Origin: a virus
DNA: 34,888 nt
Direction: 5' to 3' (one strand)
IMG/VR virus record: IMGVR_UViG_3300032242_000584
Location: 1 to 34,888 of that record
A program made the translations under genes and the position numbers. The notes beneath the pieces were generated by a model, which had not been told where the DNA came from, made no database searches, and saw only the letters and a program-made list of their open reading frames with translations. Positions 2,790-28,431 of this stretch are shown piece by piece (positions within the stretch are counted from its first letter, which is position 1; every line of letters starts with the position of its first letter).

Positions 2790-4199
2790 ATGACTACTCT
2801 TATTCCAAAATTTGATTTAAAAAATGGTGGCTCTACACCTACTGGCGCCGTCAATAGAACTATTTATCAAAAATTAAGCGACACCGTATCTGTTAAAGAT
2901 TTTGGGGCTATTGGTGATGGTTCTGCTGATGACACCGCAGCTATAAATGCTGCTTTAGCCGCAAATAACGCTGTTTATTTTCCTGCGGGGACATATTTAG
3001 TATCAGGAAATATCAATATTAAAGACAAAGCACTTTACGGTGTTCCAACTAATACAACTACGTCTAATAAAGTTTCAGTAATTAAATTGTCAGGCGCTAA
3101 TACCAACGCGTCTTTGTTTGTGAACGGCGGTAGTATTAGCACTGCTTGGGGCGCAGGCGGCGGTTGTTTGTTAAGAGATTTAACTTTACAAGGTAACTGG
3201 GATGGTTCTACTGCTAACAGCGAAACCAATATTTCTAACATCGGCGCATTGTTTAAATGGTGGTCAGGCGTATACGTAAAAATTCAAAACTGTTATTTTG
3301 TTAATTCTTTTGGTTTTGGTATTTTTTCATACCAATTAGGTTATTCGAGCGTTAATACTTCTTTTGTAAGCACTAATGCTAAAAACGGCATACATTTAGA
3401 AGCACCAAATGGCAGTAACGCTATTACAAGTACAACGATTAATGATTGTTCTATTAATTCATGCCGTGGCACGGCGCCTACAGGTGGTAATGGCATATAC
3501 CTTAAAAATGGGTTTTATTGTGATGTAAACGGTTGCGTTATTGAAGATGTACTTGTCGGCGTTTATATTGACGGCGATGATAATAGAAGTCCTACTATCT
3601 TTGAAACGCACCTTGAAACTACTACAAACGGGGGCGTTCGTTACGTAGGTAGCGGCGACGATTTAATGTTGTTTCAAAATATTTTTGCTACTAGTCCTTA
3701 TTTTGTTCAAACTAACCCTGAATTTCAAACATATAAAGCAATTGGTAACTATAACTTAGCCGACCAATATACTTTACCAGTTATAAAAGCGTTACCTCAG
3801 CAAGTTAATTTAGATACAAGCGCGCCTTCAAAAACTATTAACCAAATTACTTTGACACCTGGCACTTGGATAGTAAACGCATCTTGGATTGGTACTAACG
3901 CATCAGGTTCAGGAACTTACTCAACAAGACAAGCATTTGCTTTAAATACCGCCGCTTCGTTACCTAGCTACCCTGTTACACCCTCTAATTACGGCTCGGC
4001 TATGGTTCGCGGCGATGTTTCTTCTACCGCTAATACTGCTGATGGTTTTATGAACGGCACGTTAACACTTCCGATTACCGTAACTACAGATACCATCATA
4101 TATTTATATGGCGGCGCAGCGGCCATTACTAGCAGTTTAGTTGTTTCTTGTACTGGTTTTATAACTGCTACTAAAGTTAATGGATCGTACGTAAGCTAA
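2790..4199 (+). CDS. Tailspike-like protein with pectate-lyase (right-handed beta-helix) fold
   Basis: The protein has 469 residues. Residues 1-32 form a short N-terminal adaptor. From about 33 the signature VSVKDFGAIGDGSADDTAAI appears, followed by VYFPAGTYLVSG. This is the typical entry to the pectate_lyase_3 / glycosyl hydrolase 28-like beta-helix found in phage tailspikes. Middle residues are rich in Gly, Asn, Ile and Val with NxC and Gly-turn repeats, as expected of a beta-helix. The last 130 residues (from NQITLTPGTWIVNASW) look like a beta-sandwich trimer cap. It probably binds or cleaves host surface polysaccharide; catalytic residues cannot be assigned by eye. Its TAA overlaps the next ATG. 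Confidence 0.85.
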   Translation: MTTLIPKFDLKNGGSTPTGAVNRTIYQKLSDTVSVKDFGAIGDGSADDTAAINAALAANNAVYFPAGTYLVSGNINIKDKALYGVPTNTTTSNKVSVIKLSGANTNASLFVNGGSISTAWGAGGGCLLRDLTLQGNWDGSTANSETNISNIGALFKWWSGVYVKIQNCYFVNSFGFGIFSYQLGYSSVNTSFVSTNAKNGIHLEAPNGSNAITSTTINDCSINSCRGTAPTGGNGIYLKNGFYCDVNGCVIEDVLVGVYIDGDDNRSPTIFETHLETTTNGGVRYVGSGDDLMLFQNIFATSPYFVQTNPEFQTYKAIGNYNLADQYTLPVIKALPQQVNLDTSAPSKTINQITLTPGTWIVNASWIGTNASGSGTYSTRQAFALNTAASLPSYPVTPSNYGSAMVRGDVSSTANTADGFMNGTLTLPITVTTDTIIYLYGGAAAITSSLVVSCTGFITATKVNGSYVS

Positions 4200-5029
4200 T
4201 GACCCAACTGCTCGATACCGAACAAAAAGTGCAAGCGCTTGAAGCCGCGTTTTTAGAACAGCCTCAAGTCGATTGCCCTGTTGTTCATCGGTTCGGCCCA
4301 AGCATTTACATTCGTGAGGTGTCTATCCCCGCTGGCACCTTGTCTATTGGGCATCGCCAGACAACAACGCACCTTAATGTCATGTTGGCAGGGCGCGTTA
4401 TTATGATTAATGAAGATGGATCCAAGACTGAAATAGCCGCACCGCAGACGTTTGTTGCAGGCCCAGGGCGTAAGATTGGTTACATTCTTGAAGATATGGT
4501 TTGGCAAAACATCTACGCCACAGGCGAAACAAACGTAGAAAAGCTAGAAGCAATGTTTTTAGATAAAAGCCAAACTTGGCAAGAACATCAAAAAAATCAA
4601 CAACTATTGTTGTCTTTTGACCATTCTGAAGATATTGCTGACTATTACGCTGCAATTGCTGAATATGGATTTGACCAAGAAACGGTGCAACAACAAGTTC
4701 AAAACTTAGATGATCAATGCAATTTTCCTTTAGGAGATTACAAAGTTATGGTTGCACCGTCAAAAATAGACGGTAAAGGGCTATTTGCTACTGGAAACTT
4801 TAAAATAAACGAAATAATTGCACCTGCACGCATTAATGGATTGCGTACGCCAGCAGGAAGATTTACTAATCATTCAAAAAATCCCAACGCAAAGATGATT
4901 TTGTTGGATAATGGTGATATAAATTTAGTATCCAATATGATTATCGATGGTTGTAAAGGCGGTAATTTAGGTAATGAGATTACAATTGATTATCGTCAGG
5001 CATTAAGCCTAACCATAAGGAGAAATTAA
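4199..5029 (+). CDS. Cupin-SET fusion protein, putative protein-lysine methyltransferase
   Basis: The 276-residue protein has two recognisable halves. Residues 30-110 resemble a small cupin barrel (SIPAGTLSIGHRQTTTHLNVMLAGRV, then APQTFVAGPG), with His52 and His58 as possible metal or ligand positions. Residues 178-266 carry SET-domain marks: GKGLFA at 192-197, GRFTNHSKNPNA at 220-231 (equivalent to the SAM-binding/pseudoknot RFINHSxxPN) and GNEITIDY at 258-265 with the conserved Tyr265. Residues 111-175 between them are helical and Gln-rich. SET enzymes methylate lysines using S-adenosylmethionine. The gene lacks its own Shine-Dalgarno and is coupled to the tailspike by TAATG, so the two are made together. 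The substrate is unknown; a virion protein or a host protein is possible. Confidence 0.75.
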   Translation: MTQLLDTEQKVQALEAAFLEQPQVDCPVVHRFGPSIYIREVSIPAGTLSIGHRQTTTHLNVMLAGRVIMINEDGSKTEIAAPQTFVAGPGRKIGYILEDMVWQNIYATGETNVEKLEAMFLDKSQTWQEHQKNQQLLLSFDHSEDIADYYAAIAEYGFDQETVQQQVQNLDDQCNFPLGDYKVMVAPSKIDGKGLFATGNFKINEIIAPARINGLRTPAGRFTNHSKNPNAKMILLDNGDINLVSNMIIDGCKGGNLGNEITIDYRQALSLTIRRN

Positions 5030-5030
5030 T

Positions 5031-5786
5031 ATGTCTGGAGTCGCTACGGCAATTGTTGGAAGTGCAGTAATTGGTAGTATAGCGTCTAGTAAAGCGGCAA
5101 GCACACAAGCGCAAGCGTCACGTGACGCTACTCAAGCGCAACAAGACGCATTAAATCGGCAAATTGGATTAAACCAACCGTTTTATGATGTTGGTGTTAC
5201 GGCTGCAAATAAATTAGCCGCACAAGCCGCCTACACGCCTGAAAAATTTAACTATCAAGCAGACCCAGGCTATGCGTTTAGGTTTAATGAAGGCATGAAA
5301 GGTTTAAACGCTACGGCAGCTGCTAGGGGTGGATTAATCTCAGGCAACGCATTACGTGGCGCTACTGAGTTTGGACAAGCGGCAGGCTCACAAGAATATC
5401 AAAATGCATACAATCGCTATTTAGCAAACAATGCACAGAACTTGCAAGCGTACAATACGAATACAGCTAATACACAATATCTTGCTAACTTAGGTCAATC
5501 ATCTGCTAATAATCAAGCCAATGCAATTGGTAACTTTGGTAACGCTGCGGCAGGTAATATTATCGGTGCAGGCAACGCAAACGCTGCAGGCATGGTGGGT
5601 GGGGCTAATGCCATATCAAGTGGTGTTGGCACAGGATTAAATTATTACCAAAATCAAAATATGTTAAATGCTTTTAATGGCAGATCTCAATATAATAATT
5701 TAGCAGGTCAATATGGCGCAAGTAACGTATATATGCCTAGTGGTTATGGTGCGCAAGTGCCTACTGGCGGAACTGGTTTTGATTAA
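5031..5786 (+). CDS. Putative internal virion / DNA ejection protein (P22 gp7-like position)
   Basis: This 251-residue protein starts at ATG 5031 behind AAGGAGAAATTAAT. It opens with a small hydrophobic Ala/Gly stretch (VATAIVGSAVIGSIAS), followed by a Gln/Ala-rich helix. Then comes a conserved-looking block, YQADPGYAFRFNEGMKGLNA and AARGGLISGNALRG, familiar from podovirus proteins annotated as DNA-transfer or ejection proteins. The last 110 residues are low-complexity Asn/Ala/Gly/Gln. It is the first of three consecutive genes between tailspike and lysis cassette. P22-like phages keep three ejection proteins (gp7, gp20, gp16), so the assignment rests on pattern plus gene order. Confidence 0.65.
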   Translation: MSGVATAIVGSAVIGSIASSKAASTQAQASRDATQAQQDALNRQIGLNQPFYDVGVTAANKLAAQAAYTPEKFNYQADPGYAFRFNEGMKGLNATAAARGGLISGNALRGATEFGQAAGSQEYQNAYNRYLANNAQNLQAYNTNTANTQYLANLGQSSANNQANAIGNFGNAAAGNIIGAGNANAAGMVGGANAISSGVGTGLNYYQNQNMLNAFNGRSQYNNLAGQYGASNVYMPSGYGAQVPTGGTGFD

Positions 5787-12144: not shown

Positions 12145-13481
12145 TTCAATTCCTCCATGGCTATATCGGACAAAGCCCGTTTATCTTTTAAGGCGCCTAA
12201 AATACGTTCTTCAATTGTTTTGTTAGTCAGCAACAGATAAACCCACACGTCATGCTTTTGACCTGATCTATGTAGCCTACCAATCGTTTGCTCGTACAAC
12301 TCAAGACTCCACGGCAACGATACAAACACCATCTTGCACCCGCCATGCTGAAGGTTTAACCCATGCCCTGCTGACTTAGGGTGAATCAATAGCAGTTCAA
12401 TCTTGCCCTCGTTCCAACGCTCAATAGCCTTTGTGTCATTGATGGTTTGGGCGTGTGGGTACCGACGTTTGAGTTCTGCCAACTCCTCGATGTAGTTGTA
12501 CACAATGATGGTGTTAGCGTGTTGGTTTTCCTCAATCAACTCATCCAACAAATCAAACTTATGCGTGCTAAACCATATCGGCACTTGGCTAACATTCATA
12601 CGCCCTGGTGTATCGGACGCCGTTGTTTCAGTATGATATATAAATCCTGATGACATCTGTTGCAACTTCTGCGTTACGACTGCTGCGCTAAGTGCCGTAA
12701 TCTGTTCTTTCTCAAACTGCACAACAAAATCTTTTTTCATTTTTTCGTAATGGCTACGGTCAGCCATGTTGCACCGCATCTCAACCACATGGCATGGCGG
12801 TAATTTATCAGCGTATTCGCCAGCTTCTAATACAAACGTCGCAGGTTTAATCACTTCCATAACCTGTGGCAAAGAACCGATACGGGGCGCCCACTCACCA
12901 AAATCTTTATTCATTAGCACAAAATACTTTTGCATAAACGCTCCTTTAGACCGCCCTAACAACTGTTGATCAATAATCTTACATTGCCCAAAAACATCCT
13001 CTAAACCGTTGCTTGTAAACGATCCTGTTAAACCCCAACGTATCTTGATGGGGTCAATGACTTTGTTTAATGCTTTAAAACGTGTGCCAGACGGGTTCTT
13101 TAGCCTGGTCAGCTCATCAAACACAATGCCATCAAAGTCCATCACGTCAGGCAATGATTGCAAGTTATCGTAGTTAGTAACAACCACTTGCGCGTTCGAT
13201 TCAAACGCTTCACGACGTTGCTTTGGTGTACCAACGGCGACGGCTAACTTCATATCAGGCGCCCACTTCGGTTGCTCAACAGGCCACACATCCGTACATA
13301 CGCGTTTAGGTGCTACGACCAACCAACGATTGACAACGCCGTTGTATAGGGCGTCATCCATTGCAGTCAACGTAATAGCCGTCTTACCCGCACCAACTGG
13401 CGCAAGAATCATCGCTTTGTCATTCTCGTACAAGAAGTCAGCTGCTTTTTCTTGATAATCTCTGAGTTTCAAGCCACTCAT
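12141..13481 (-). CDS. SNF2-like superfamily 2 helicase / DNA translocase
   Basis: The 446-residue protein carries an N-terminal Q-like region (LRDYQEKAADFLY) and Walker A APVGAGKT at 27-34. Motif II is FDEL at 121-124, and motif III is LTGS at 151-154. Motif V is HPKSAGHGLNLQ at 367-378, and motif VI is QTIGRLHRSGQ at 398-408. The motif spacing and the 'GRxHRxGQ' form match compact SNF2 helicases common in phages. It would hydrolyse ATP to move on double-stranded DNA during replication or recombination. It overlaps the upstream VRR-NUC gene by 44 bases, which suggests the two work together at branched DNA. Known phage homologues have about 450 residues, so it is full length. Confidence 0.9.
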   Translation of the reverse strand: MSGLKLRDYQEKAADFLYENDKAMILAPVGAGKTAITLTAMDDALYNGVVNRWLVVAPKRVCTDVWPVEQPKWAPDMKLAVAVGTPKQRREAFESNAQVVVTNYDNLQSLPDVMDFDGIVFDELTRLKNPSGTRFKALNKVIDPIKIRWGLTGSFTSNGLEDVFGQCKIIDQQLLGRSKGAFMQKYFVLMNKDFGEWAPRIGSLPQVMEVIKPATFVLEAGEYADKLPPCHVVEMRCNMADRSHYEKMKKDFVVQFEKEQITALSAAVVTQKLQQMSSGFIYHTETTASDTPGRMNVSQVPIWFSTHKFDLLDELIEENQHANTIIVYNYIEELAELKRRYPHAQTINDTKAIERWNEGKIELLLIHPKSAGHGLNLQHGGCKMVFVSLPWSLELYEQTIGRLHRSGQKHDVWVYLLLTNKTIEERILGALKDKRALSDIAMEELK

Positions 13482-13731
13482 CTATTTGTTCCTTTTCCCA
13501 TAAGCATACATACTTCTGACGCAAAGATTTCATCTCGTTTGCAAACAATTTCTGCAGTTCTGACAACCTACCATTCGGTGCTTTCAACTCTACAAACCAT
13601 GTGCTTCCGTCAGGCAAACACGCAATCTGATCGCTAACACCACGTTGATTGATAGACCTAAACTTATAGGTCTTTCCACCTAATGACAGCACCGCCCATT
13701 TAAAGTAAAATTCAATTTCTTTTTCATTCAT
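13438..13731 (-). CDS. VRR-NUC domain nuclease
   Basis: This 97-residue minus-strand protein is the minimal VRR-NUC form of the PD-(D/E)XK nucleases. The region IEFYFKWAVLSLGGKTYKF is the N-terminal helix. It is followed by GVSDQIACLPDGST, with Asp34 in the PD position, and FVELKAPNGRLSELQ, with Glu48 and Lys50 as the ExK pair and Gln60 behind. The family cuts branched structures such as Holliday junctions or flaps. It leads the minus operon and overlaps the helicase, a pairing common in phage replication blocks. Its ribosome site is weak. Confidence 0.88.
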   Translation of the reverse strand: MNEKEIEFYFKWAVLSLGGKTYKFRSINQRGVSDQIACLPDGSTWFVELKAPNGRLSELQKLFANEMKSLRQKYVCLWEKEQIDEWLETQRLSRKSS

Positions 13732-13741
13732 GTAAAAAAGT

Positions 13742-13771
13742 TTAACACATCTTTTTAATTTGTGATATAGT
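13742..13771 (+). promoter_or_regulatory. Sigma70-type promoter for the forward replication operon
   Basis: TTAACA (13742-13747) and TATAGT (13766-13771) each match the consensus at five of six bases and are separated by 18 bases, with a TG just before the -10. They lie 37 bases upstream of ATG 13808, in the 76-base divergent gap. AAAGGA at 13794-13799 is the ribosome site. The opposite promoter for the minus operon must overlap this gap, but no equally good match was found there. Confidence 0.6.
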
Positions 13772-13807
13772 AGAATCTCAAATCAACTAAAGTAAAGGAA
13801 TCTAAAG

Positions 13808-14935
13808 ATGGCAAATCATTCAAAAGTAGTCGGCGGTTCAACTGCCAAACGGGTTATCGGATGCCCAGGCTCTGTAGCATTATGCGCTACGATGCCACCA
13901 AAACCGAGTAGCAAGTATGCAGATGAAGGTACGTTACTTCACGACGCTATTGCACAAGTCCTAGATAAAGACGTTAAACCTGAGTCATTACTTGGTATGG
14001 CATATCAAGATCAGGTACTGACACAAGAATTGATTGATAACAAATTACACGTTGCATTAGATTTACTTGGTCAAGTTGACCCTAATTTAGAAATGGAGTA
14101 CGCAATTGAAACTGAAGTCGGATTTGGTGATTTTTTACCTGATGTGTTTGGCTCATGTGATTTACTTGGGCGCATTGGCAATCGTGCTATTGTCTTGGAT
14201 TGGAAGTTCGGCGATGGCGTAACAGTCGGCGTTGAAGAAAACGAACAGTTATTATTTTATGCAGCCGCAGCCATGCGTACGCCGTCGGTGTCATGGGTGT
14301 TTGATGGCGCAACTGAAATCGAATGTGTCATCATTCAACCGCCGATGATTAGACGTTGGGTCACAACCGTTGAGCGTGTAAAGCAGTTTGAACTGACGCT
14401 CTTGCAAGCCGTCAAAGCATCACAAAAGAAAGACGCGCCAATTCAATTAGGCGAACATTGCCGTTGGTGTGTTGCAAAACCGATTTGTCCTAAAATGACA
14501 GGTGCAGTAGATAGAACAGTTAACTTACAAATTAAATCGCTTGATGCTGACAATATAGGTTTTTATTTGGCGAACTGTGACTTGTTAGAACAATGGATTA
14601 CAGATTTACGTGCCTTAGCGCATCAAATGTTAGAAGCCGATGTGGTTGTGCCTGGTTGGAAGTTGGTCAACAAGCGTGCTACACGTCAATGGGCTAATGA
14701 AGACGTTGCTGATGATGTATTATCTAAAGTCATTCCGCAAGATGAATTGTATGTGGCTAAAATGATTTCACCTGCGCAAGCAGAAAAGGTACTCAAGAAG
14801 TTAGGTCAGCAATTACCTGACGACTTAGTAGTAGCAGTAAGTAGTGGCAGTACGTTGGCACGGGAAGATGATCCTCGTCCAGCGGTTGTACAAATCGGGA
14901 AGCAACTCACCGCAGCCCTTTCTAAAATTCAATAA
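13808..14935 (+). CDS. Cas4/AddB-like PD-(D/E)XK nuclease (DUF2800 family)
   Basis: The 375-residue protein has the motifs of a RecB-type nuclease with an iron-sulfur cluster. His45 lies in GTLLHDAI, Asp118 in GSCDLL, and Asp131-x-Lys133 in VLDWKFG, followed by ENEQLLFYAAA. Cysteines at 19, 218, 221 and 227 (GCPGS; HCRWCVAKPIC) reproduce the C...CxxCx5C pattern of Cas4 and AddB. The family is known in phages as DUF2800. It would degrade DNA ends exonucleolytically to provide single strands for recombination or replication. It is the first gene after the divergent promoter and is followed by a putative DNA-binding partner, as expected of an exonuclease/annealing pair. The C-terminal 100 residues lack a clear motif. 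Confidence 0.88.
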   Translation: MANHSKVVGGSTAKRVIGCPGSVALCATMPPKPSSKYADEGTLLHDAIAQVLDKDVKPESLLGMAYQDQVLTQELIDNKLHVALDLLGQVDPNLEMEYAIETEVGFGDFLPDVFGSCDLLGRIGNRAIVLDWKFGDGVTVGVEENEQLLFYAAAAMRTPSVSWVFDGATEIECVIIQPPMIRRWVTTVERVKQFELTLLQAVKASQKKDAPIQLGEHCRWCVAKPICPKMTGAVDRTVNLQIKSLDADNIGFYLANCDLLEQWITDLRALAHQMLEADVVVPGWKLVNKRATRQWANEDVADDVLSKVIPQDELYVAKMISPAQAEKVLKKLGQQLPDDLVVAVSSGSTLAREDDPRPAVVQIGKQLTAALSKIQ

Positions 14936-17904: not shown

Positions 17905-20214
17905 ATGCAAAATCTATTAGAGTATATAACAAAACTAGCGCCAGAGGGCGAAACAGCGTTGGTTGTGCGTCAAAAGCCACAAATCAAAGACGGTCAAATG
18001 CAGTTCCACGCAGACGGCGCCATCAAATGTACATGGCCTGCCTATTTACCTAGTCAGAAAATGCGTGCAGGTGAAGCGTGGTACATCAATACTGCATCAT
18101 TTATCATTGATCGGTTTGAGGATGGGCGCATATCCGCAAGTGCTGCTAACTGCGAATACGTCCTCTTTATGATGCTTGACGACATCGGCACCAAGTCCAA
18201 GACCCCACCACTCGCGCCGACGTGGATACTCGAGACAAGCCCTAATAATTTTCAGTACGGTTACGCGTTCTCTGAGCAACCAACCAAAGGCGAGTTTACC
18301 GCAGCCGTGAAGGCGATTGCACAGGCAGGTTACACCGATGCAGGGGCGACCAATGCTGTGCGTAATGTGCGTTTGCCTGGTTCCGTGAATCTGAAGCCTG
18401 GACGTGATAACTTTGAAGCGCGTTTGGTTGAGTTTTACCCTGAGCGTGAATACACTTTAACCGAAATATGCGAAGCCTTAGACGTAACTCCTGCGCCTGC
18501 CGATACGAACCATTACGCACCCATTCGTTTGGTAGACAATGGCGGCGATGATGTGCTAGCATGGCTAAACAATCAAGGCCTCATTTTGTCCAAAATTAAT
18601 GGCGAGGGATGGTTGTCCGTTACTTGCCCAAACAATGCCGAGCATACGGACGGCAACCCTGAAGGGCGTTACAAGCCTCTTGACCGTTCGTATTGTTGCT
18701 TACATTCGCATTGCGTGGACTTTGATTCCAAGTCGTTTTTAGCGTGGGTTGCCGCTAATGGTGGCCCTACTGTCAATCACGGTTTGCGTGATGACTTGAT
18801 AGCCGAAGCCATGAACATTGCTCTATCCAAGATTAGCCCATCCGAGATGTTCACCGATAGCGCGGAGGCCATCATCGCTGAGGTCGAGCGTAAAGAGCTT
18901 GGACGTGTCGAGAAGGCGCAATGGTACGAGCGTTTTGCGTACGTGCAGGATGACGAATCCTACTTCGATATGCAAGACCGTCGTGAGATATCAAGGCAGA
19001 CGTTTAACGCGTTGTTTCGTCACATCGATTGCAAATCCATTCACTCTAACACGCGCATTTTACCGTCGGTATGCTTTGACGAGAACCGTCAGGCGATGGG
19101 CGCTAAAGCGCTCGTAGGTATCACCTATGCTGCGGGTGAGTCCGTAATCGTGTCCCGTGACGGTGATTTGTACGGCAACCGTTGGCGTGACGCGCGTCCT
19201 GATGTGTCGTCCGTGGTCGCTGATGACAGGTCAATTTCAGCGTGGTTAGATCATTGCCGTGAGTTGGTGCCTGATGCCAACGAGTTAGACCATTTACTCA
19301 ACATCATGGCTTTTAAGGTGCAACACCCTAAACTCAAGATTAATCATGCTGTATTGCATGGCGGTGATGAGGGTAGCGGTAAGGATACGATGTGGGCGCC
19401 GTTCATTTGGGCGGTGTGTGGTAGTCATCTCAAGAATCGTGGCATCATGGACAATAATTCGATTAACTCACAATGGGGTTATCAATTAGAATCCGAAATA
19501 CTTTTAATCAACGAATTAAAAGAGCCTGACGCTAGCGCTCGTAGGCAGTTAGCGAACCAACTTAAGCCGATCATCGCCGCACCGCCTGAAATGTTACCAA
19601 TCAATCGTAAGGGTTTGCACCCATACCAAATGGCTAACCGTGTGTTCGTTTTAGCGTTTAGTAACGACCCCGTGCCGATTAGTTTAGCGTCACAGGATCG
19701 TCGGTGGTTCTGCGTGTGGAGTTCTGCACCTCGTATGAGTCCCGCACGGGCGCAGGCGCTTTGGGCGTGGTATCGCAAGGGGGGTTTTGAATCGATTTCA
19801 GCGTGGCTACACGCCCGTGATGTGAGTCAGTTCAACCCGTCAGCGTCGCCAATGATGACCGAATTTAAAGCGAACCTCGTAGAACATGGAATGAGTATGG
19901 CGGAATCATATCTCGTTGAGATGTTGCGTAATCGTGTCGGTGAGTTCACTAAGGGCGTGATAGGGTCGCCATTCCATGCGCTTTGTGACCGTTTAGCGGG
20001 GACTGCGCCTAGTGGCGTCAAAGTGCCACAATCGGCGCTCTTACACGCTCTCAAGGAAGCGGGCTGGGTTGACTGCGGGCGTATTAAGTCAAGGGAATAT
20101 GACACTAAAAAACATATCTTCGCATCGCCTGAACTTGCTAGCGTGTTAAGTAAGTCCGAGTTACGGCGAGCGCTCGAGGATACGCCAACACCTCAAATAG
20201 TAAAGACAAGGTAA
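17905..20214 (+). CDS. Primase-helicase with N-terminal AEP-type primase, zinc site and superfamily 3-like helicase
   Basis: The 769-residue protein starts at ATG 17905 behind GGAAGGAAAAACAATAA. Its N-terminal third resembles RepB/PrimPol-type primases: LFMMLDDIG with Asp92-Asp93, ILETSPNNFQYGYAF, and RNVRLPGSVNLKPG. A cysteine/histidine cluster follows (Cys241, His247, Cys264-265, His267/269, Cys270), suitable for one zinc ion that touches DNA. The C-terminal half is a D5/NrS-1-like helicase, with Walker A GDEGSGKD around Lys493, then LLINELKEPDA as Walker B-like, and VFVLAFSNDPVPI. It would unwind and prime the replication fork for the polymerase encoded upstream. It is the last gene of the operon, followed by a bidirectional terminator. 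Confidence 0.88.
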   Translation: MQNLLEYITKLAPEGETALVVRQKPQIKDGQMQFHADGAIKCTWPAYLPSQKMRAGEAWYINTASFIIDRFEDGRISASAANCEYVLFMMLDDIGTKSKTPPLAPTWILETSPNNFQYGYAFSEQPTKGEFTAAVKAIAQAGYTDAGATNAVRNVRLPGSVNLKPGRDNFEARLVEFYPEREYTLTEICEALDVTPAPADTNHYAPIRLVDNGGDDVLAWLNNQGLILSKINGEGWLSVTCPNNAEHTDGNPEGRYKPLDRSYCCLHSHCVDFDSKSFLAWVAANGGPTVNHGLRDDLIAEAMNIALSKISPSEMFTDSAEAIIAEVERKELGRVEKAQWYERFAYVQDDESYFDMQDRREISRQTFNALFRHIDCKSIHSNTRILPSVCFDENRQAMGAKALVGITYAAGESVIVSRDGDLYGNRWRDARPDVSSVVADDRSISAWLDHCRELVPDANELDHLLNIMAFKVQHPKLKINHAVLHGGDEGSGKDTMWAPFIWAVCGSHLKNRGIMDNNSINSQWGYQLESEILLINELKEPDASARRQLANQLKPIIAAPPEMLPINRKGLHPYQMANRVFVLAFSNDPVPISLASQDRRWFCVWSSAPRMSPARAQALWAWYRKGGFESISAWLHARDVSQFNPSASPMMTEFKANLVEHGMSMAESYLVEMLRNRVGEFTKGVIGSPFHALCDRLAGTAPSGVKVPQSALLHALKEAGWVDCGRIKSREYDTKKHIFASPELASVLSKSELRRALEDTPTPQIVKTR

Positions 20215-21811: not shown

Positions 21812-22420
21812 TTACATTAATGCGCTTGTAAAATCAACGCTCACTTTCCCGCCTACTTGTGAGGTTATATCCGCGCGCATGGGCATAACCACGCCCACGA
21901 AGTTATCAACGCCCGCTAAATGCACAAGCGCGCTAGAATTACCATTTTGATATAAATTGAGAGTAGCGGTTTTACTCCCGCCTAGTAAGTGTTGAACTTT
22001 TAAAAATTGAGTTAAATACTCATAATTGAAGTTTGCTACTGTTCCATCGGTTGTGAATTGACATACGCGACGATAATCGGGAAAAGTTCCCTCAACTTGC
22101 GCGAATATGGTTTGTATGCCCATGCCTGTTATTTTCCAATAGCCCGCTTTTTCTTCTTTGGTGAATATCAATAACGGGTCAATTTTGCCCGCCTTTGGTA
22201 GATTTTCAATAACATCGCGCGGGATAATAAGAGACCCCGCGCCTTGATTGTCTTCGCTATGATGATTAAGAATACCTAATTTATGCCCGTCGGTTACAAC
22301 TAGGCGCGTTGTCGTCGCATTGTATTCGACAAAAATACCGCATAAATAGTATCGGATATCACTTTTAGGCGCGAGGATTAAAAGGGCTTTTAGTTGAGAT
22401 TGTTTAATAGAGAATTGCAT
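21812..22420 (-). CDS. Two-domain sliding-clamp-like protein (beta-clamp homologue lacking one domain)
   Basis: The 202-residue minus-strand protein matches bacterial beta-clamp landmarks in order: KSDIRYYLCGIFVEY (19-33), LVVTDGHKLGI (40-50), LIIPRDVIENL (64-74), EGTFPDYRRV (110-119) and VVMPMR (177-182). In E. coli beta these lie in domains 2 and 3. Domain 1 appears to be missing, and the length is about 200 against 366. A two-domain clamp would need three copies to close a six-domain ring, as T4 gp45 and PCNA do. It would tether a polymerase to DNA. Family A polymerases of T7-like phages do not normally use such clamps, so the partner is uncertain. A host-clamp mimic is an alternative. The ribosome site is AAAAGGA before ATG 22420. 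Confidence 0.8.
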   Translation of the reverse strand: MQFSIKQSQLKALLILAPKSDIRYYLCGIFVEYNATTTRLVVTDGHKLGILNHHSEDNQGAGSLIIPRDVIENLPKAGKIDPLLIFTKEEKAGYWKITGMGIQTIFAQVEGTFPDYRRVCQFTTDGTVANFNYEYLTQFLKVQHLLGGSKTATLNLYQNGNSSALVHLAGVDNFVGVVMPMRADITSQVGGKVSVDFTSALM

Positions 22421-22440: not shown

Positions 22441-22632
22441 TTAGAATTGTTTAATGTTGTTATCAATACGGTATTTACAATCTTTTTTCATCTTGCTTAC
22501 AACATAAGATAATGGATAATCATAAAATACCTCTCCAAATCTATCATTATCACTACTAGCAACGGCACGAATAGAACCGTTATGTTGTCTCTCTAGCATG
22601 ATGTAATAATCTTTATAGTTAAAGTTTTTCAT
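22441..22632 (-). CDS. 63-residue first gene of the minus operon next to the origin-like region
   Basis: The minus-strand ATG 22632, behind AAAAAGGAAACTAAAA, encodes MKNFNYKDYYIMLERQHNGS, then IRAVASSDNDRFGEVFYDYP and a basic end. It looks like a small alpha/beta protein with many Tyr, Asp and Lys. It has no helix-turn-helix or enzyme motif. As the promoter-proximal gene it should be expressed first after infection. Confidence 0.65.
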   Translation of the reverse strand: MKNFNYKDYYIMLERQHNGSIRAVASSDNDRFGEVFYDYPLSYVVSKMKKDCKYRIDNNIKQF

Positions 22633-22705
22633 TTTTAGTTTCCTTTTTCGTTTAATTTAGTGAATTAGTTACTACCCCTCTATTTCAACATAGGTAAATT
22701 TATAT

Positions 22706-22724
22706 TGCAACAAGTTTTGTTGCA
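22706..22724. repeat. Perfect 8-3-8 inverted repeat, possible operator
   Basis: TGCAACAA (22706-22713), spacer GTT, TTGTTGCA (22717-22724). It lies 74 bases upstream of the first minus-strand gene, where the promoter of that operon would be expected. The symmetry suits a dimeric repressor or activator. As RNA it would be a weak hairpin with a 3-base loop and no T-tract, so a DNA-binding site is favoured. Confidence 0.5.
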
Positions 22725-22757
22725 TTTATGCAAAATAATTGTTTGTGGATATTTTGT

Positions 22758-22787
22758 GTTGTCCAAGTGGATAACAACATGGACAAC
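22758..22787. repeat. Inverted pair of the TTGTCCA iteron around a DnaA-like box
   Basis: GTTGTCCA (22758-22765) and TGGACAAC (22780-22787) are perfect inverse copies with 14 bases between. Within the spacer, AGTGGATAA (22766-22774) is the complement of TTATCCACT, one base from the DnaA consensus TTATCCACA. This is the only reverse-oriented iteron copy in the region. Confidence 0.55.
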
Positions 22788-22829
22788 GCGAAAAAGCATT
22801 GAACGCTTACGGGGCTTCGAGATGGATAT

Positions 22830-22838
22830 TGTGGATAA
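22830..22838 (-). promoter_or_regulatory. Perfect DnaA-box match next to AT-rich DNA
   Basis: TGTGGATAA on the plus strand reads TTATCCACA on the minus strand, identical to the strong DnaA box consensus. Near matches are TGTGGATAT (22744-22752), AGTGGATAA (22766-22774) and TTGTCCACA (23029-23037). About 40 bases of A/T-rich sequence (22839-22880) follow directly, a possible unwinding element. Chance occurrence of one 9-mer in 600 bases is low, and the clustering strengthens the call. Confidence 0.55.
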
Positions 22839-22909
22839 TTATTATTACCTTATTCTATAAAAATGAAAATGGTATATATAGACTTGGCATAGGGGTAACT
22901 GAAATTGAC

Positions 22910-22957
22910 TTGTCCACTTGTCCATCTTGTCCACGTTTGCCCATGCTTTTTGTCCCC
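22910..22957 (+). repeat. First iteron cluster, TTGTCCA direct repeats
   Basis: TTGTCCA begins at 22910, 22918 and 22927, in perfect copies 8 and 9 bases apart. Degraded copies follow: TTGCCCA at 22937 and TTGTCCC at 22950. Copies with near-helical spacing on one face of DNA are typical initiator-binding iterons. Confidence 0.65.
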
Positions 22958-23078
22958 GCTTTTTTCCTTGCGCAAGGCGCTCGCGTGCCACATGGATAAT
23001 GTGAGCAATTAAAAAACAAATGCCCATGTTGTCCACAATGTAACGGCTAACAACTAATTGCTATCAACTTAAAACCCC

Positions 23079-23104
23079 TTGTCCACTTTGTCCATCTTGT
23101 CCAT
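23079..23104 (+). repeat. Second iteron cluster, three perfect 9-base repeats
   Basis: TTGTCCA begins at 23079, 23088 and 23097, exactly every 9 bases, with C or T as the eighth base. A single copy, TTGTCCACA, stands at 23029-23037 between the two clusters. The order C-T in the eighth base (CAC then CAT) also begins the first cluster. Confidence 0.65.
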
Positions 23105-23141
23105 GCGGTCAGACGCCCGCCAGCAAAAAATAAAAATCTTC

Positions 23142-23159
23142 GGGCAGGGGGGGGTAGGG
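23142..23159 (+). other. G-quadruplex motif with an 8-G tract
   Basis: GGG (23142-23144), eight G (23147-23154) and GGG (23157-23159) are separated by CA and TA. The stretch reads G3-N2-G3-N2-G3-N2-G3 within 18 bases, a compact intramolecular quadruplex pattern. In such an A/T-leaning genome it stands out. It lies between the second iteron cluster and the terminase small-subunit gene. The homopolymer length may be uncertain for sequencing reasons. Confidence 0.5.
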
Positions 23160-23227
23160 CAAAACGGACAGGGCCTTGCTGTAGCGGAGCGTTTGCAAAA
23201 ACTTTTTATTTTTTTGAAAATATTTGC

Positions 23228-23233
23228 TACACT
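23228..23233 (+). promoter_or_regulatory. Possible extended -10 element directly before the terminase small-subunit gene
   Basis: TGCTACACT (23225-23233 region) fits an extended -10 (TGnTATAAT) at moderate quality; the matching -35 is poor. If used, transcription would start about 23240, exactly at an in-frame ATG, giving a leaderless message. No Shine-Dalgarno is present before either ATG (23234 or 23240), which is consistent with this. Confidence 0.3.
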
Positions 23234-23707
23234 ATGCAAATGTTCGATAATTTTCAATCCTTTCCTTACGAGGTACGCAAGCTCGAAGCAACAGAGGCGA
23301 GGTTAGAGAGGATATACAATGCATCAAAGCTAGGACTAAAAGGTGACTCGCTTGCGCTTGCAGCTGGAATGTTACCCACCGAATACCGACAACTCACGCA
23401 ACTTGATCCAATTGCTGAAATGGCAGAACTCAAAGGCAAAGCGGATGGTGAAGCTGAAATGGCAAACGTGTTGCGTGACGCAGCACTTGCTGGCGACGCT
23501 AAGTCCGCGCTAGAAGTTCTTAAGCATCAGCACGGCTGGGTCGCTAAACAGCAACTGTCCATTGATGTCGAACAACGCATCTCCATCACGCAAGCACTTG
23601 AACAAGCACAATCGCGCGTCATCGAAGGCGTGTTCAAACAAGTAGAAAACGCAACAGACGCAACAAAAATGTTCCACGTGGAACCTCAACTCAAACAAAC
23701 GGCTTAA
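23234..23707 (+). CDS. Terminase small subunit-like DNA-binding protein
   Basis: The 157-residue protein starts at ATG 23234 or 23240 (MFDNFQSFPYEV), without a Shine-Dalgarno. Residues 22-60 hold a helix-turn-helix-like segment (LERIYNASKLGLKGDSLALA, then AAGMLPTEYRQL). Next come DPIAEMAELKGKADGEAEMA and the helix ALAGDAKSALEVLKHQHGW, a layout familiar from small terminase or DNA-packaging proteins of podoviruses. The C-terminal coiled coil (SITQALEQAQSRVIEGVF) would oligomerise. It should recognise the packaging site on phage DNA and load the large subunit encoded by the next gene, whose ATG directly follows its stop. The origin-like region upstream could contain its binding site. Confidence 0.75.
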   Translation: MQMFDNFQSFPYEVRKLEATEARLERIYNASKLGLKGDSLALAAGMLPTEYRQLTQLDPIAEMAELKGKADGEAEMANVLRDAALAGDAKSALEVLKHQHGWVAKQQLSIDVEQRISITQALEQAQSRVIEGVFKQVENATDATKMFHVEPQLKQTA

Positions 23708-26191: not shown

Positions 26192-28431
26192 TGGCATACG
26201 ACCAATCATCGATGAATATTGTCGGAAAAGTTGCCGACGTAGGAAGTAATCCGACAACGCAAGAAGATCCGAAGGATACTCTATCGGCGATGCGGTCACG
26301 CTTTACGATGGCGATGTCAGCGTATAGCGAATCAAGAGAAGATGAACTTGATGATTTAAGATTTATGGCTGGTTCACCTGACAACCAATGGCAATGGCCT
26401 GCGGATGTGTTAGCAACTAGGGGTTCAGTCCAAGGACAAACCATCAACGCAAGACCTTGTTTGACTATTAACAAACTACCGCAACACGTCCACCAAGTTA
26501 CCAACGAACAACGTCAAAATCGACCCTCTGGGAAAGTTATTCCTGCGGACGATAAAGGCGATGTTGAAGTGGCTGAAATATTTGACGGTATGGTACGCCA
26601 TATTGAGTACATATCAGACGCCGACGTAGCATACGATACTGCGTGCGAAAACCAAGTTACCTACGGTGAAGGTTATATTCGCATATTAACTGAATACTGT
26701 AACGATAATTCGTTTGACCAAGACTTGAGAATTGGTCGTATTCGCAATGCATTTAGCGTATACATGGATCCAATGATTCAAGATCCATGCGGATCTGATG
26801 CTGAGTATTGTTTTATTACTGAAGATTTAACCAAAGAAGAATACGAAAGACAGTTTCCTGACGCTGCACCGCTTAGTTCAATGATTGCGCAAGGTGTGGG
26901 CGACTCATCACTTAGCCAATGGATAAATGAAAACACTATCCGTATTGCTGAGTATTTTTATTACAAGCATATACCGACAAAACTTAATCTTTACCCAGGC
27001 AACATGAGTCATTTTAATAACTCGCCTGAAGATAGACAGATGAAAATGATGGGTTTGAAACCAATCAAGAGTCGAATGGTTGATATTAAAAAAGTCATGT
27101 GGATGAAAACCAATGGCTTTGAAGTATTGGAAGAAAGAGAATGGGCAGGTAAATGGATCCCTGTCGTTCGTGTAGTGGGTAACGAATTTGAAGTAGACGG
27201 TCGTATTTATGTGTCAGGTTTGGTTAGAAATGCCAAAGACGCACAACGTATGTACAACTATTGGGTATCACAAGAAGCAGAAATGCTTGCTTTGGCGCCC
27301 AAAGCACCGTTTATTGGATACGGCGGTCAGTTTGAAGGTTATGAACAACAATGGAAAACGGCTAATACAACGAATTGGCCGTATTTAGAAGTTAATCCTG
27401 ACGTAACCGACGGTATGGGTGGATCATTACCACTACCGCAACGCGCCCAACCGCCGATGGCTTCAAGTGGTTTATTGCAAGCTAAGGCAGGCGCAAGTGA
27501 TGATATCAAGTCCACAACTGGACAGTATGACTCGAGCTTAGGTGCCACAAGCAACGAACGCTCGGGGAAAGCTATTCTTGCACGCGAAAAACAAGGGGAT
27601 ACAGGTACGTATCACTATGTTGATAATTTATCCCGCGCGATTCGCCATATTACCCGTCAATTAGTCGATATGATTCCTAAAATTTACGATACTGAGCGAA
27701 TTGCTCGTATTGTAGGTATTGATGGTGAAGTTGATATGGTTAAAATCAATCCAACACAGCCTGAAGCCGTCAAAAAGATTGTTGACGAACAAGGACTTGT
27801 GATAGAAAAAGTGTATAACCCAAGTGTCGGTACTTACGACGTTTGCGTAACAACTGGCCCAAGTTATATGACCAAACGTCAAGAATCTTTAGATGCAATG
27901 AGCCAATTATTGCAAGGAAACCCACAACTTTGGTCAGTTGCAGGCGATTTATTCATCAAAAATATGGACTGGCCTGGCGCCCAAGAGATGTCACAGCGGT
28001 TTGCTAAAACAATTGATCCAAAATTGTTGTCTAATGACGATAAATCACCTGAATTACAGGCCGCCGAGCAACAAATTCAGGCGATGAGTCAAGAAATGGA
28101 ACAAATGCACACGATGTTGCAAAATGTTAGCAAATCAATGGAAATGCAAGACATTGAACGCAAGGATTTTGAGGCACAAATTAAGATGTTTGACGCTGAA
28201 ACCAAGCGAATTAGTGCAATTCAAGCATCCATGTCGCCTGATCAGATACATGACATTGTAATGGGAACAATTCATGCGGCAATTGATACAGGCGATCTTA
28301 TTTCTAGTTCGCAACAAGATATGCGCATGAATATGCAAGAAGATGAGCAACCACCGCAGATGCCTATGCAACAACCACCGATGCAAGGCCAAGAACAAAT
28401 GCCAATGGCACCACCTGAAGGGATGCAATAA
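26191..28431 (+). CDS. Portal protein, P22 gp1-like
   Basis: The 746-residue protein is close to the P22 portal length (725). The N-terminal region holds RSRFTMAMSAYSESREDELD, FMAGSPDNQWQW and RPCLTINKLPQHVHQVTNEQ. It continues with YTYGEGY-like VTYGEGYIRILTEY, and DPMIQDPCGSDAEYCFITED, all typical of P22-type portals. The middle has QYDSSLGATSNERSGKAILA. The C-terminal 110 residues form a Gln/Met-rich helix and tail (PQMPMQQPPMQGQEQ), corresponding to the barrel and its flexible end. As a ring of twelve it forms the DNA entry channel and binds terminase, scaffold and the gp4-like protein. Its stop overlaps the next start. Confidence 0.93.
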   Translation: MAYDQSSMNIVGKVADVGSNPTTQEDPKDTLSAMRSRFTMAMSAYSESREDELDDLRFMAGSPDNQWQWPADVLATRGSVQGQTINARPCLTINKLPQHVHQVTNEQRQNRPSGKVIPADDKGDVEVAEIFDGMVRHIEYISDADVAYDTACENQVTYGEGYIRILTEYCNDNSFDQDLRIGRIRNAFSVYMDPMIQDPCGSDAEYCFITEDLTKEEYERQFPDAAPLSSMIAQGVGDSSLSQWINENTIRIAEYFYYKHIPTKLNLYPGNMSHFNNSPEDRQMKMMGLKPIKSRMVDIKKVMWMKTNGFEVLEEREWAGKWIPVVRVVGNEFEVDGRIYVSGLVRNAKDAQRMYNYWVSQEAEMLALAPKAPFIGYGGQFEGYEQQWKTANTTNWPYLEVNPDVTDGMGGSLPLPQRAQPPMASSGLLQAKAGASDDIKSTTGQYDSSLGATSNERSGKAILAREKQGDTGTYHYVDNLSRAIRHITRQLVDMIPKIYDTERIARIVGIDGEVDMVKINPTQPEAVKKIVDEQGLVIEKVYNPSVGTYDVCVTTGPSYMTKRQESLDAMSQLLQGNPQLWSVAGDLFIKNMDWPGAQEMSQRFAKTIDPKLLSNDDKSPELQAAEQQIQAMSQEMEQMHTMLQNVSKSMEMQDIERKDFEAQIKMFDAETKRISAIQASMSPDQIHDIVMGTIHAAIDTGDLISSSQQDMRMNMQEDEQPPQMPMQQPPMQGQEQMPMAPPEGMQ

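Follow-up and report, generated by a model that had tools for sequence, protein, structure and literature searches.

The short repeats in a gene-free gap of this viral genome raise the question of which protein reads them, and whether the gap is the place where the phage starts its replication. The window (i.e. the whole stretch of 34,888 nucleotides that was analysed, IMG/VR record IMGVR_UViG_3300032242_000584) is the genome of a P22-like podovirus according to its portal and coat protein, and its replication genes comprise a family A polymerase, a DUF2800 exonuclease, a SNF2-type helicase and a primase-helicase of 769 aa. MAG binning of genome contigs gave four matches, in bins labelled actinobacterium, proteobacterium, Armatimonadetes and unnamed bacterium; these labels conflict, and therefore binning yields no host. 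It has long been asked how an initiator and its origin can shift their specificity jointly, because altering only one of them should be lethal, and the phage family of the window offers a natural experiment with at least 7 iteron types, tens of switches and three residues in a compact domain.

The gap, a putative replication origin at positions 22633–23233, is bordered exactly by an ORF on the minus strand (22441–22632) and an ORF on the plus strand (23234–23707), in agreement with the initial annotation, which had described a gene-free region between divergent operons. All nine TTGTCCA copies reported there were located in the 601 bp, eight on the plus strand (22759, 22910, 22918, 22927, 23029, 23079, 23088 and 23097) and one on the minus strand (22780), compared with 0.11 copies on average, and never more than 3, in 3000 dinucleotide shuffles of the gap. 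The whole window contained 18 copies against 4.6 expected, a number attained in none of 100 shuffles. The two clusters at 8–10-base spacing were likewise recovered as two TTGTCCA triplets on the plus strand, array 1 (22910–22933, spacing 8 and 9 bp) and array 2 (23079–23103, spacing 9 and 9 bp). According to the repeat positions, the left arm also holds a single TTGTCCA iteron (22759–22765, plus strand) and, together with the gap alignment, an inverted iteron, TTGTCCATG (22778–22786, minus strand), while a single full-consensus iteron, TTGTCCACA, lies at 23029–23037 (plus strand). The AT-rich patch noted before was found at 22835–22884; it is a candidate unwinding element, with sites mostly on the minus strand to its left and mostly on the plus strand to its right. 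The cumulative GC skew, proposed earlier as a check, does dip between about 20 and 22.5 kb, but it is uninformative about an origin because the dip coincides with the reverse-strand operon and gene orientation dominates the skew.

We scanned viral contigs with the primase-helicase and with TerL (80 loci each), and two further scans with divergent primase-helicases enlarged the set to 271 loci, of which 175 were non-redundant. TTGTCCA arrays in the relatives were positioned upstream of terS, where the copy number was bimodal: at least 3 copies in 93 of 168 loci and none in 68 of 168. The loci without TTGTCCA often had TGACAAT repeats instead, e.g. L100 and L179, whose terS is 99% identical to that of the window. 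In the gap alignment, arrays were substituted position by position between conserved flanks, and other iterons occupied the aligned position of array 1 in type-B relatives (defined below by their wing residues). The expectation that relatives carry the same repeat at the same junction thus held for the junction, where repeats are kept, but not for their sequence, which switches between lineages; the types included TTGTCCACA, TTGTCCATA, TGACYCACA, TTGCYTACA, TGACCCAAA and TGACAATTT, among others. On a tree of aa 1–590 of the primase-helicase, with the C-terminus left out, the iteron head changed at least 38 times and the tail 15 times. We also observed that a stretch before terS (23145–23220, GGGGGGTAGGGC ... 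CAGGGCCTTGCTGTAGCGGAGCGTTTGCAAAAACTTTTTATTTTTTT) is kept across iteron types while the iterons differ. A gene-blind scan for three tandem TTGTCCA copies returned 95 contigs, 37 of which carried the phage family of the window, compared with 3 of 120 contigs in a reversed-pattern scan, a rough control in which many matches resemble 9-base tandem repeats within genes.

The gene of the primase-helicase (17905–20214, plus strand) lies about 2.5 kb from the repeats, and its domains, all on the plus strand, include a RepB_primase domain (aa 83–178, 18151–18438; Pfam, E 6e-8), which we take to belong to the archaeo-eukaryotic primase class, and a DUF5906 helicase core (aa 484–600, 19354–19704; Pfam). 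A TOPRIM (DnaG-like) primase domain was absent from the protein by Pfam, RepB_primase being found instead. The helicase region is related to that of NrS-1 polymerase and matched the NrS-1 helicase chains 6k9c and 6k9e (6k9c, E 6e-9, profile positions 460–661). The C-terminal part (aa 655–769, 19867–20211), modelled by AlphaFold2 with a mean pLDDT of 84, is predicted to form a winged-helix domain with the topology helix-strand-helix-helix-strand-wing-strand, and is the putative iteron-binding part of this candidate initiator. Its presumed recognition helix (aa 709–719) is nearly invariant. The predicted wing loop (aa 728–735, KSREYDTK; 20086–20109) is flanked by strands at aa 722–727 and 736–740, and it contains the three residues K728, R730 and D733 that are discussed below. 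Solved structures gave weak matches to the model (Z up to 6.5) that were generic winged helices only, with RFX5 among them, and a PDB sequence search with the C-terminal profile gave chance-level matches only. Among viral models, other phage primase/helicase proteins had the same domain with high probability and weak E-values, the nearest being annotated as 'NrS-1 polymerase-like helicase domain'. A full-length structure model was poor (pLDDT 51) and was set aside.

The initial annotation had seen no obvious iteron-binding initiator in the window. The primase-helicase, however, covaries with the repeats through its C-terminal wing. In 56 non-redundant primase-helicases, the type A wing combined K728, R730 and D733 in all 39 sequences and the type B wing A728, A or H730 and K, T or P733 in all 17, so that residues 728, 730 and 733 split the two types without exception, even in pairs that are 96% identical. 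Nearest-neighbour prediction of the iteron type reached 1.0 only at aa 698–767 and was about 0.6 at aa 1–590 (chance 0.58); PolA, TerL and portal were near chance, and the clamp beside the gap was intermediate.

We derived a class consensus from the enriched octamers of the 175 loci grouped by residues 728, 730 and 733. The iteron was TTGT-CC-ACA in the KRD and KRE class, TTGT-CC-ATA in the KSD class, TGAC-CC/TC-ACA in the KRT and KRP class, TTGC-CT/TT-ACA in the ARS and ARG class, TGAC-CC-AAA in the AGQ and AGP class and TGACAATTT in the AAK, AAT and AHP class, while the MRP and MRT class had both TGAC-TA-ACA and TGACTACA. Residue 730 went with the last three bases (R730 with ACA in 137/139, S730 with ATA in 5/5 and G730 with AAA in 12/12), and residue 733 with the first four, i.e. 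D or E with TTGT, T, P, Q or K mainly with TGAC, and S or G mainly with TTGC. D733 was accompanied by a TTGT head in 73 of 83 loci, another head being scored in the other 10. Residue 728 was related to the base preceding the last three, K occurring with C and A mainly with T, yet the AGQ class departs from this code, as it has A728 and C precedes the tail. A secondary count, of G before ACA with K728, is probably spurious and stems from TTGTGGACAA, which is TTGTCCACAA in reverse complement.

These associations were also seen in phylogeny-controlled pairs: for TTGT with D/E733 about 19 of 23 pairs were concordant and none opposite (p about 4e-6), and for ACA with R730 11 of 12 were concordant and none opposite (p about 0.001), whereas the comparison of TTGC with S/G733 was underpowered (p 0.125). 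The class patterns were drawn up post hoc from the data; nonetheless, the same residues were recovered by an unsupervised column scan that used 6-mer gap similarity alone, with no named motifs and with the effect of overall identity removed. Columns 733, 728 and 730 ranked first, second and third of 539 variable columns (r 0.64, 0.51 and 0.34; median 0). The best columns of the control proteins, with 101–174 loci each, reached 0.13 in polA, 0.11 in terS and 0.13 in terL, and the clamp and portal, with small samples of 18 and 32 loci, peaked noisily at about 0.35. Nearest-neighbour prediction had given a very high value for the end of terS; the column scan did not confirm it, and we attributed it to gappy columns with few informative rows. 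On this comparative evidence, the phage primase-helicase very probably reads the repeats.

Two neighbours of the gap had to be weighed as readers against the primase-helicase. The terminase small subunit is encoded directly downstream, a position that would suit a pac site, and the initial annotation had named it as a protein to be assayed for binding. TerS, however, did not covary with the iteron type once relatedness was accounted for (r 0.11 for its best column among 174 loci, against 0.63 for the primase-helicase), and it can be 99% identical in phages with different iterons, such as L100 and L179, which makes a pac site read by TerS extremely improbable. We hold it just as improbable that another linked protein reads the repeats, e.g. 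the clamp-like protein at 21812–22420, which adjoins the gap and predicts the type at 0.75–0.81 by nearest neighbour (chance 0.5). With near full-length copies in 18 of the 175 non-redundant loci only, that protein cannot serve all of them, its best column (r 0.35) comes from a small sample, its linkage is explained by closeness to the gap, and the counts already suggest loci that keep their iteron type while the clamp is absent or exchanged. The same minus-strand gene was labelled sliding-clamp-like by Pfam (DNA_pol3_beta_2) and RusA-like resolvase by PHROGs; one of the two labels is probably wrong.

Host DnaA, proposed earlier as a partner of a phage-specific initiator, was a further candidate. 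The perfect DnaA box, TTATCCACA, was confirmed at 22830–22838 on the minus strand, as were three one-mismatch boxes at 22744, 22766 and 23029, and TTGTCCACA itself is close to a DnaA box; host DnaA might bind TTATCCACA and its relatives, with or without a phage initiator. All four boxes exist, but iterons and 'DnaA boxes' had been counted partly twice, because the box at 23029 (TTGTCCACA) is one of the nine TTGTCCA copies. DnaA-like boxes occurred 49 times in the 79 loci of the KRD class, which carry TTGTCCA iterons, and in none of the 96 loci of other classes; TTATCCACA likewise had 0 copies in the 96 non-KRD loci, where we looked for DnaA boxes conserved independently of the phage iterons. 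In the gap alignment, relatives of other iteron types carried their own iteron at the aligned positions, including that of the perfect box. The head-to-tail spacing of 8–9 bp leaves scant room for separate 9-bp DnaA boxes, which also counts against a DnaA-dependent origin. Since they are confined to TTGTCCA lineages and replaced elsewhere by the type's own iteron, the 'DnaA boxes' are most likely degenerate, weak iterons, and this applies to TTATCCACA as well as to ATATCCACA (22744–22752, minus strand) and TTATCCACT (22766–22774, minus strand), two of the one-mismatch boxes. The use of host DnaA was thus not borne out, as the boxes vanish with the TTGTCCA iterons upon a type switch, and we regard both a DnaA-dependent origin and DnaA as a co-initiator as very unlikely. 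The family illustrates how degenerate iterons can pass for DnaA boxes.

Covariation identifies the reader of the repeats and says nothing on where replication starts. The arrays could instead be an operator, at which the C-terminus of the primase-helicase, or a related factor, controls the two divergent operons while replication starts elsewhere; this would give identical covariation, and it would fit a gap that separates divergent operons and has 4 promoter-like matches against 2.0 expected. Nevertheless, we consider an operator unlikely: the protein that reads the sites is no repressor but a primase-helicase with an SF3-like motor, oppositely oriented sites, about 12 in number, lie on both sides of the AT-rich patch, and the window has no further array of this kind. 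An origin that also serves autoregulation would fit the main reading too. The orientation of the sites was most informative in the KRD/KRE class, with 48 plus and 171 minus sites to the left of the AT-rich patch and 232 plus and 65 minus sites to the right. The same flip from minus to plus was found in the AAK/AAT/AHP, AGQ/AGP and ARS/ARG classes and, with few sites, in KSD, and it was without significance in the KRT/KRP and MRx classes; the Fisher tests behind these statements treat sites as independent, although sites within one locus are not. This flip would suit two initiator helicase rings loaded back to back. With repeats kept at the junction, a phage protein that covaries with them and opposite site orientations around the AT-rich patch, the earlier proposal of an origin read by a phage-specific initiator is supported, and we estimate a probability of about 0.86 that the gap is the replication origin of the phage.

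At such an origin, TTGTCCA(CA) would be the iteron of the phage's own primase-helicase, several monomers of which would bind the tandem and inverted iterons, with the DnaA-like boxes acting as weak ones. The bound monomers would form a pair of oppositely oriented helicase rings across the AT-rich patch and melt it, and the fused primase domain would then prime synthesis for the phage PolA. We somewhat favour a model in which the wing loop is an exchangeable reading head whose three residues act in a near-modular fashion (the first four bases set by 733, the last by 728 and 730), specificity resides in the wing and not in the recognition helix, which hardly varies, and initiator and origin have been co-switched dozens of times. 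If true, a wing that carries specificity in place of the recognition helix would be unusual among winged-helix proteins. Some winged helices, e.g. RFX1, read the major groove by the wing. Neither the repeat family nor the residue code was reported in the open-access literature that we searched.

The codons of the wing give an indication of how the switches came about. The Ser729 codon was AGY in each of the 15 AAK/AAT loci and TCN in every other class, control serines being mixed, and the AAK/AAT class required six changes on the N-terminal tree. This codon family is found in type B alone, yet type B is dispersed across the N-terminal tree, which suggests that recombination carried the type-B wing from one lineage to another. 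The C-terminal stretch had raised synonymous divergence in some close pairs. The simplest reading of these sequences is that the wing recombined together with the origin.

Among known systems, P4 alpha is by analogy the closest in mode of action. It unites primase, helicase and an origin-repeat-binding winged helix in one polypeptide and uses short iterons (PMC4234260, citing Yeo et al. 2002; Ziegelin and Lanka 1995). The window protein resembles P4 alpha in the one-polypeptide arrangement, the fused SF3/D5-like helicase and the short iterons, its own binding being predicted. The primase of P4 alpha is of the bacterial TOPRIM type, whereas the window protein combines RepB_primase with the DUF5906 helicase by Pfam. 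The P4 origin-binding domain gave no match by sequence search or among the listed fold matches of the C-terminal domain. The P4 iterons also differ in sequence from those of the window.

In helicase sequence, the closest system is NrS-1 polymerase, a phage PrimPol-helicase with a hexameric ring helicase of SF3-like type and a primase of archaeo-eukaryotic type (PMC7102993, PMC8718748). The helicase regions are related, and the archaeo-eukaryotic-type primase is common to both proteins. The motif recognised by NrS-1, TTTGGTTA, has two copies only in the NrS-1 genome, and the N-terminal primase and helix-bundle part is credited with reading it (PMC7102993, PMC8718748); the window family, unlike NrS-1, has many iterons per genome that covary with the C-terminal wing, and TTTGGTTA was not among the repeats enriched in the gaps of the relatives. 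In mobile-element primases of the PrimPol families, a C-terminal winged helix has been proposed from models to recognise the origin via its recognition helix and wing (PMC5862659). That proposal is a model prediction, while in the window family comparative evidence links three wing residues to the repeat sequence and so supports the idea of origin recognition by the C-terminal winged helices of PrimPol-helicases in phages and plasmids.

A comparable covariation of initiator DNA-binding domain and origin is known from RepA of the PLE satellites of Vibrio cholerae, where the two are swapped as a module, replication needs cognate pairs and an origin-directed nuclease is one selective force behind the swap (PMC8263062). 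PLE RepA differs in belonging to the RepA_N family, in its iterons of about 30 bp and in having two modules, whereas the window family has many; neither the primase-helicase nor those of its neighbours that were scanned had a RepA_N-type domain. In the window family, co-switching perhaps guards against cross-talk, be it with satellites, co-infecting phages or nucleases directed at the origin. The C-terminal domain also binds iterons in the initiator helicases SaPI Rep and SCCmec Cch2 (PMC7581432), which differ in their separate primase, their other iterons and their location on staphylococcal islands.

Similar arrays were seen outside the family. The C-terminal domain was found in none of the 58 other contigs with TTGTCCA triplets, and many of these triplets may be coding repeats. 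In a lambdoid group that includes L034, L064 and L067, the array need not be spanned by any long ORF; L034, L038, L057, L063, L064 and L067 carry TTGTCCACC arrays of 7–10 copies without the winged-helix domain of the primase-helicase, L034 having lambdoid structural genes and L064 a TOPRIM/AAA_25 protein (3411–5429) beside the array. TTGTCCA-like arrays therefore also occur with unrelated replication proteins, and in the L034/L064 group another initiator possibly reads a similar repeat.

Among more distant phages, arrays of 7–11 bp repeats had no clear counterpart in Vibrio phage 1.185.O, MZH0603, a Thiohalocapsa phage and MW202496, except for GTTGTCGG, an 8-bp tandem repeat found at both ends (1–20 and 43328–43345) of the Thiohalocapsa phage record (L545), which has a distant primase-helicase. 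In the Vibrio phage 1.185.O record (L544), CRISPR spacers are annotated inside a coding gene (28101–28318); the annotated feature may be no CRISPR array but a repeat within the coding sequence. The wing residues of MW202483 (L535), a relative at 55% identity, are very different (F728, P730 and S733 by alignment), and CTACCAACA-like repeats and many TGTTTACATAAACA palindromes were seen near its terS (4091–5000). Finally, DSL-LC05 (L536) has a related terminase but a different primase and a different repeat, with TGACCCACTGGGTCA-like repeats at the same junction (13250–14200) and a gene annotated as 'repressor protein C' nearby.
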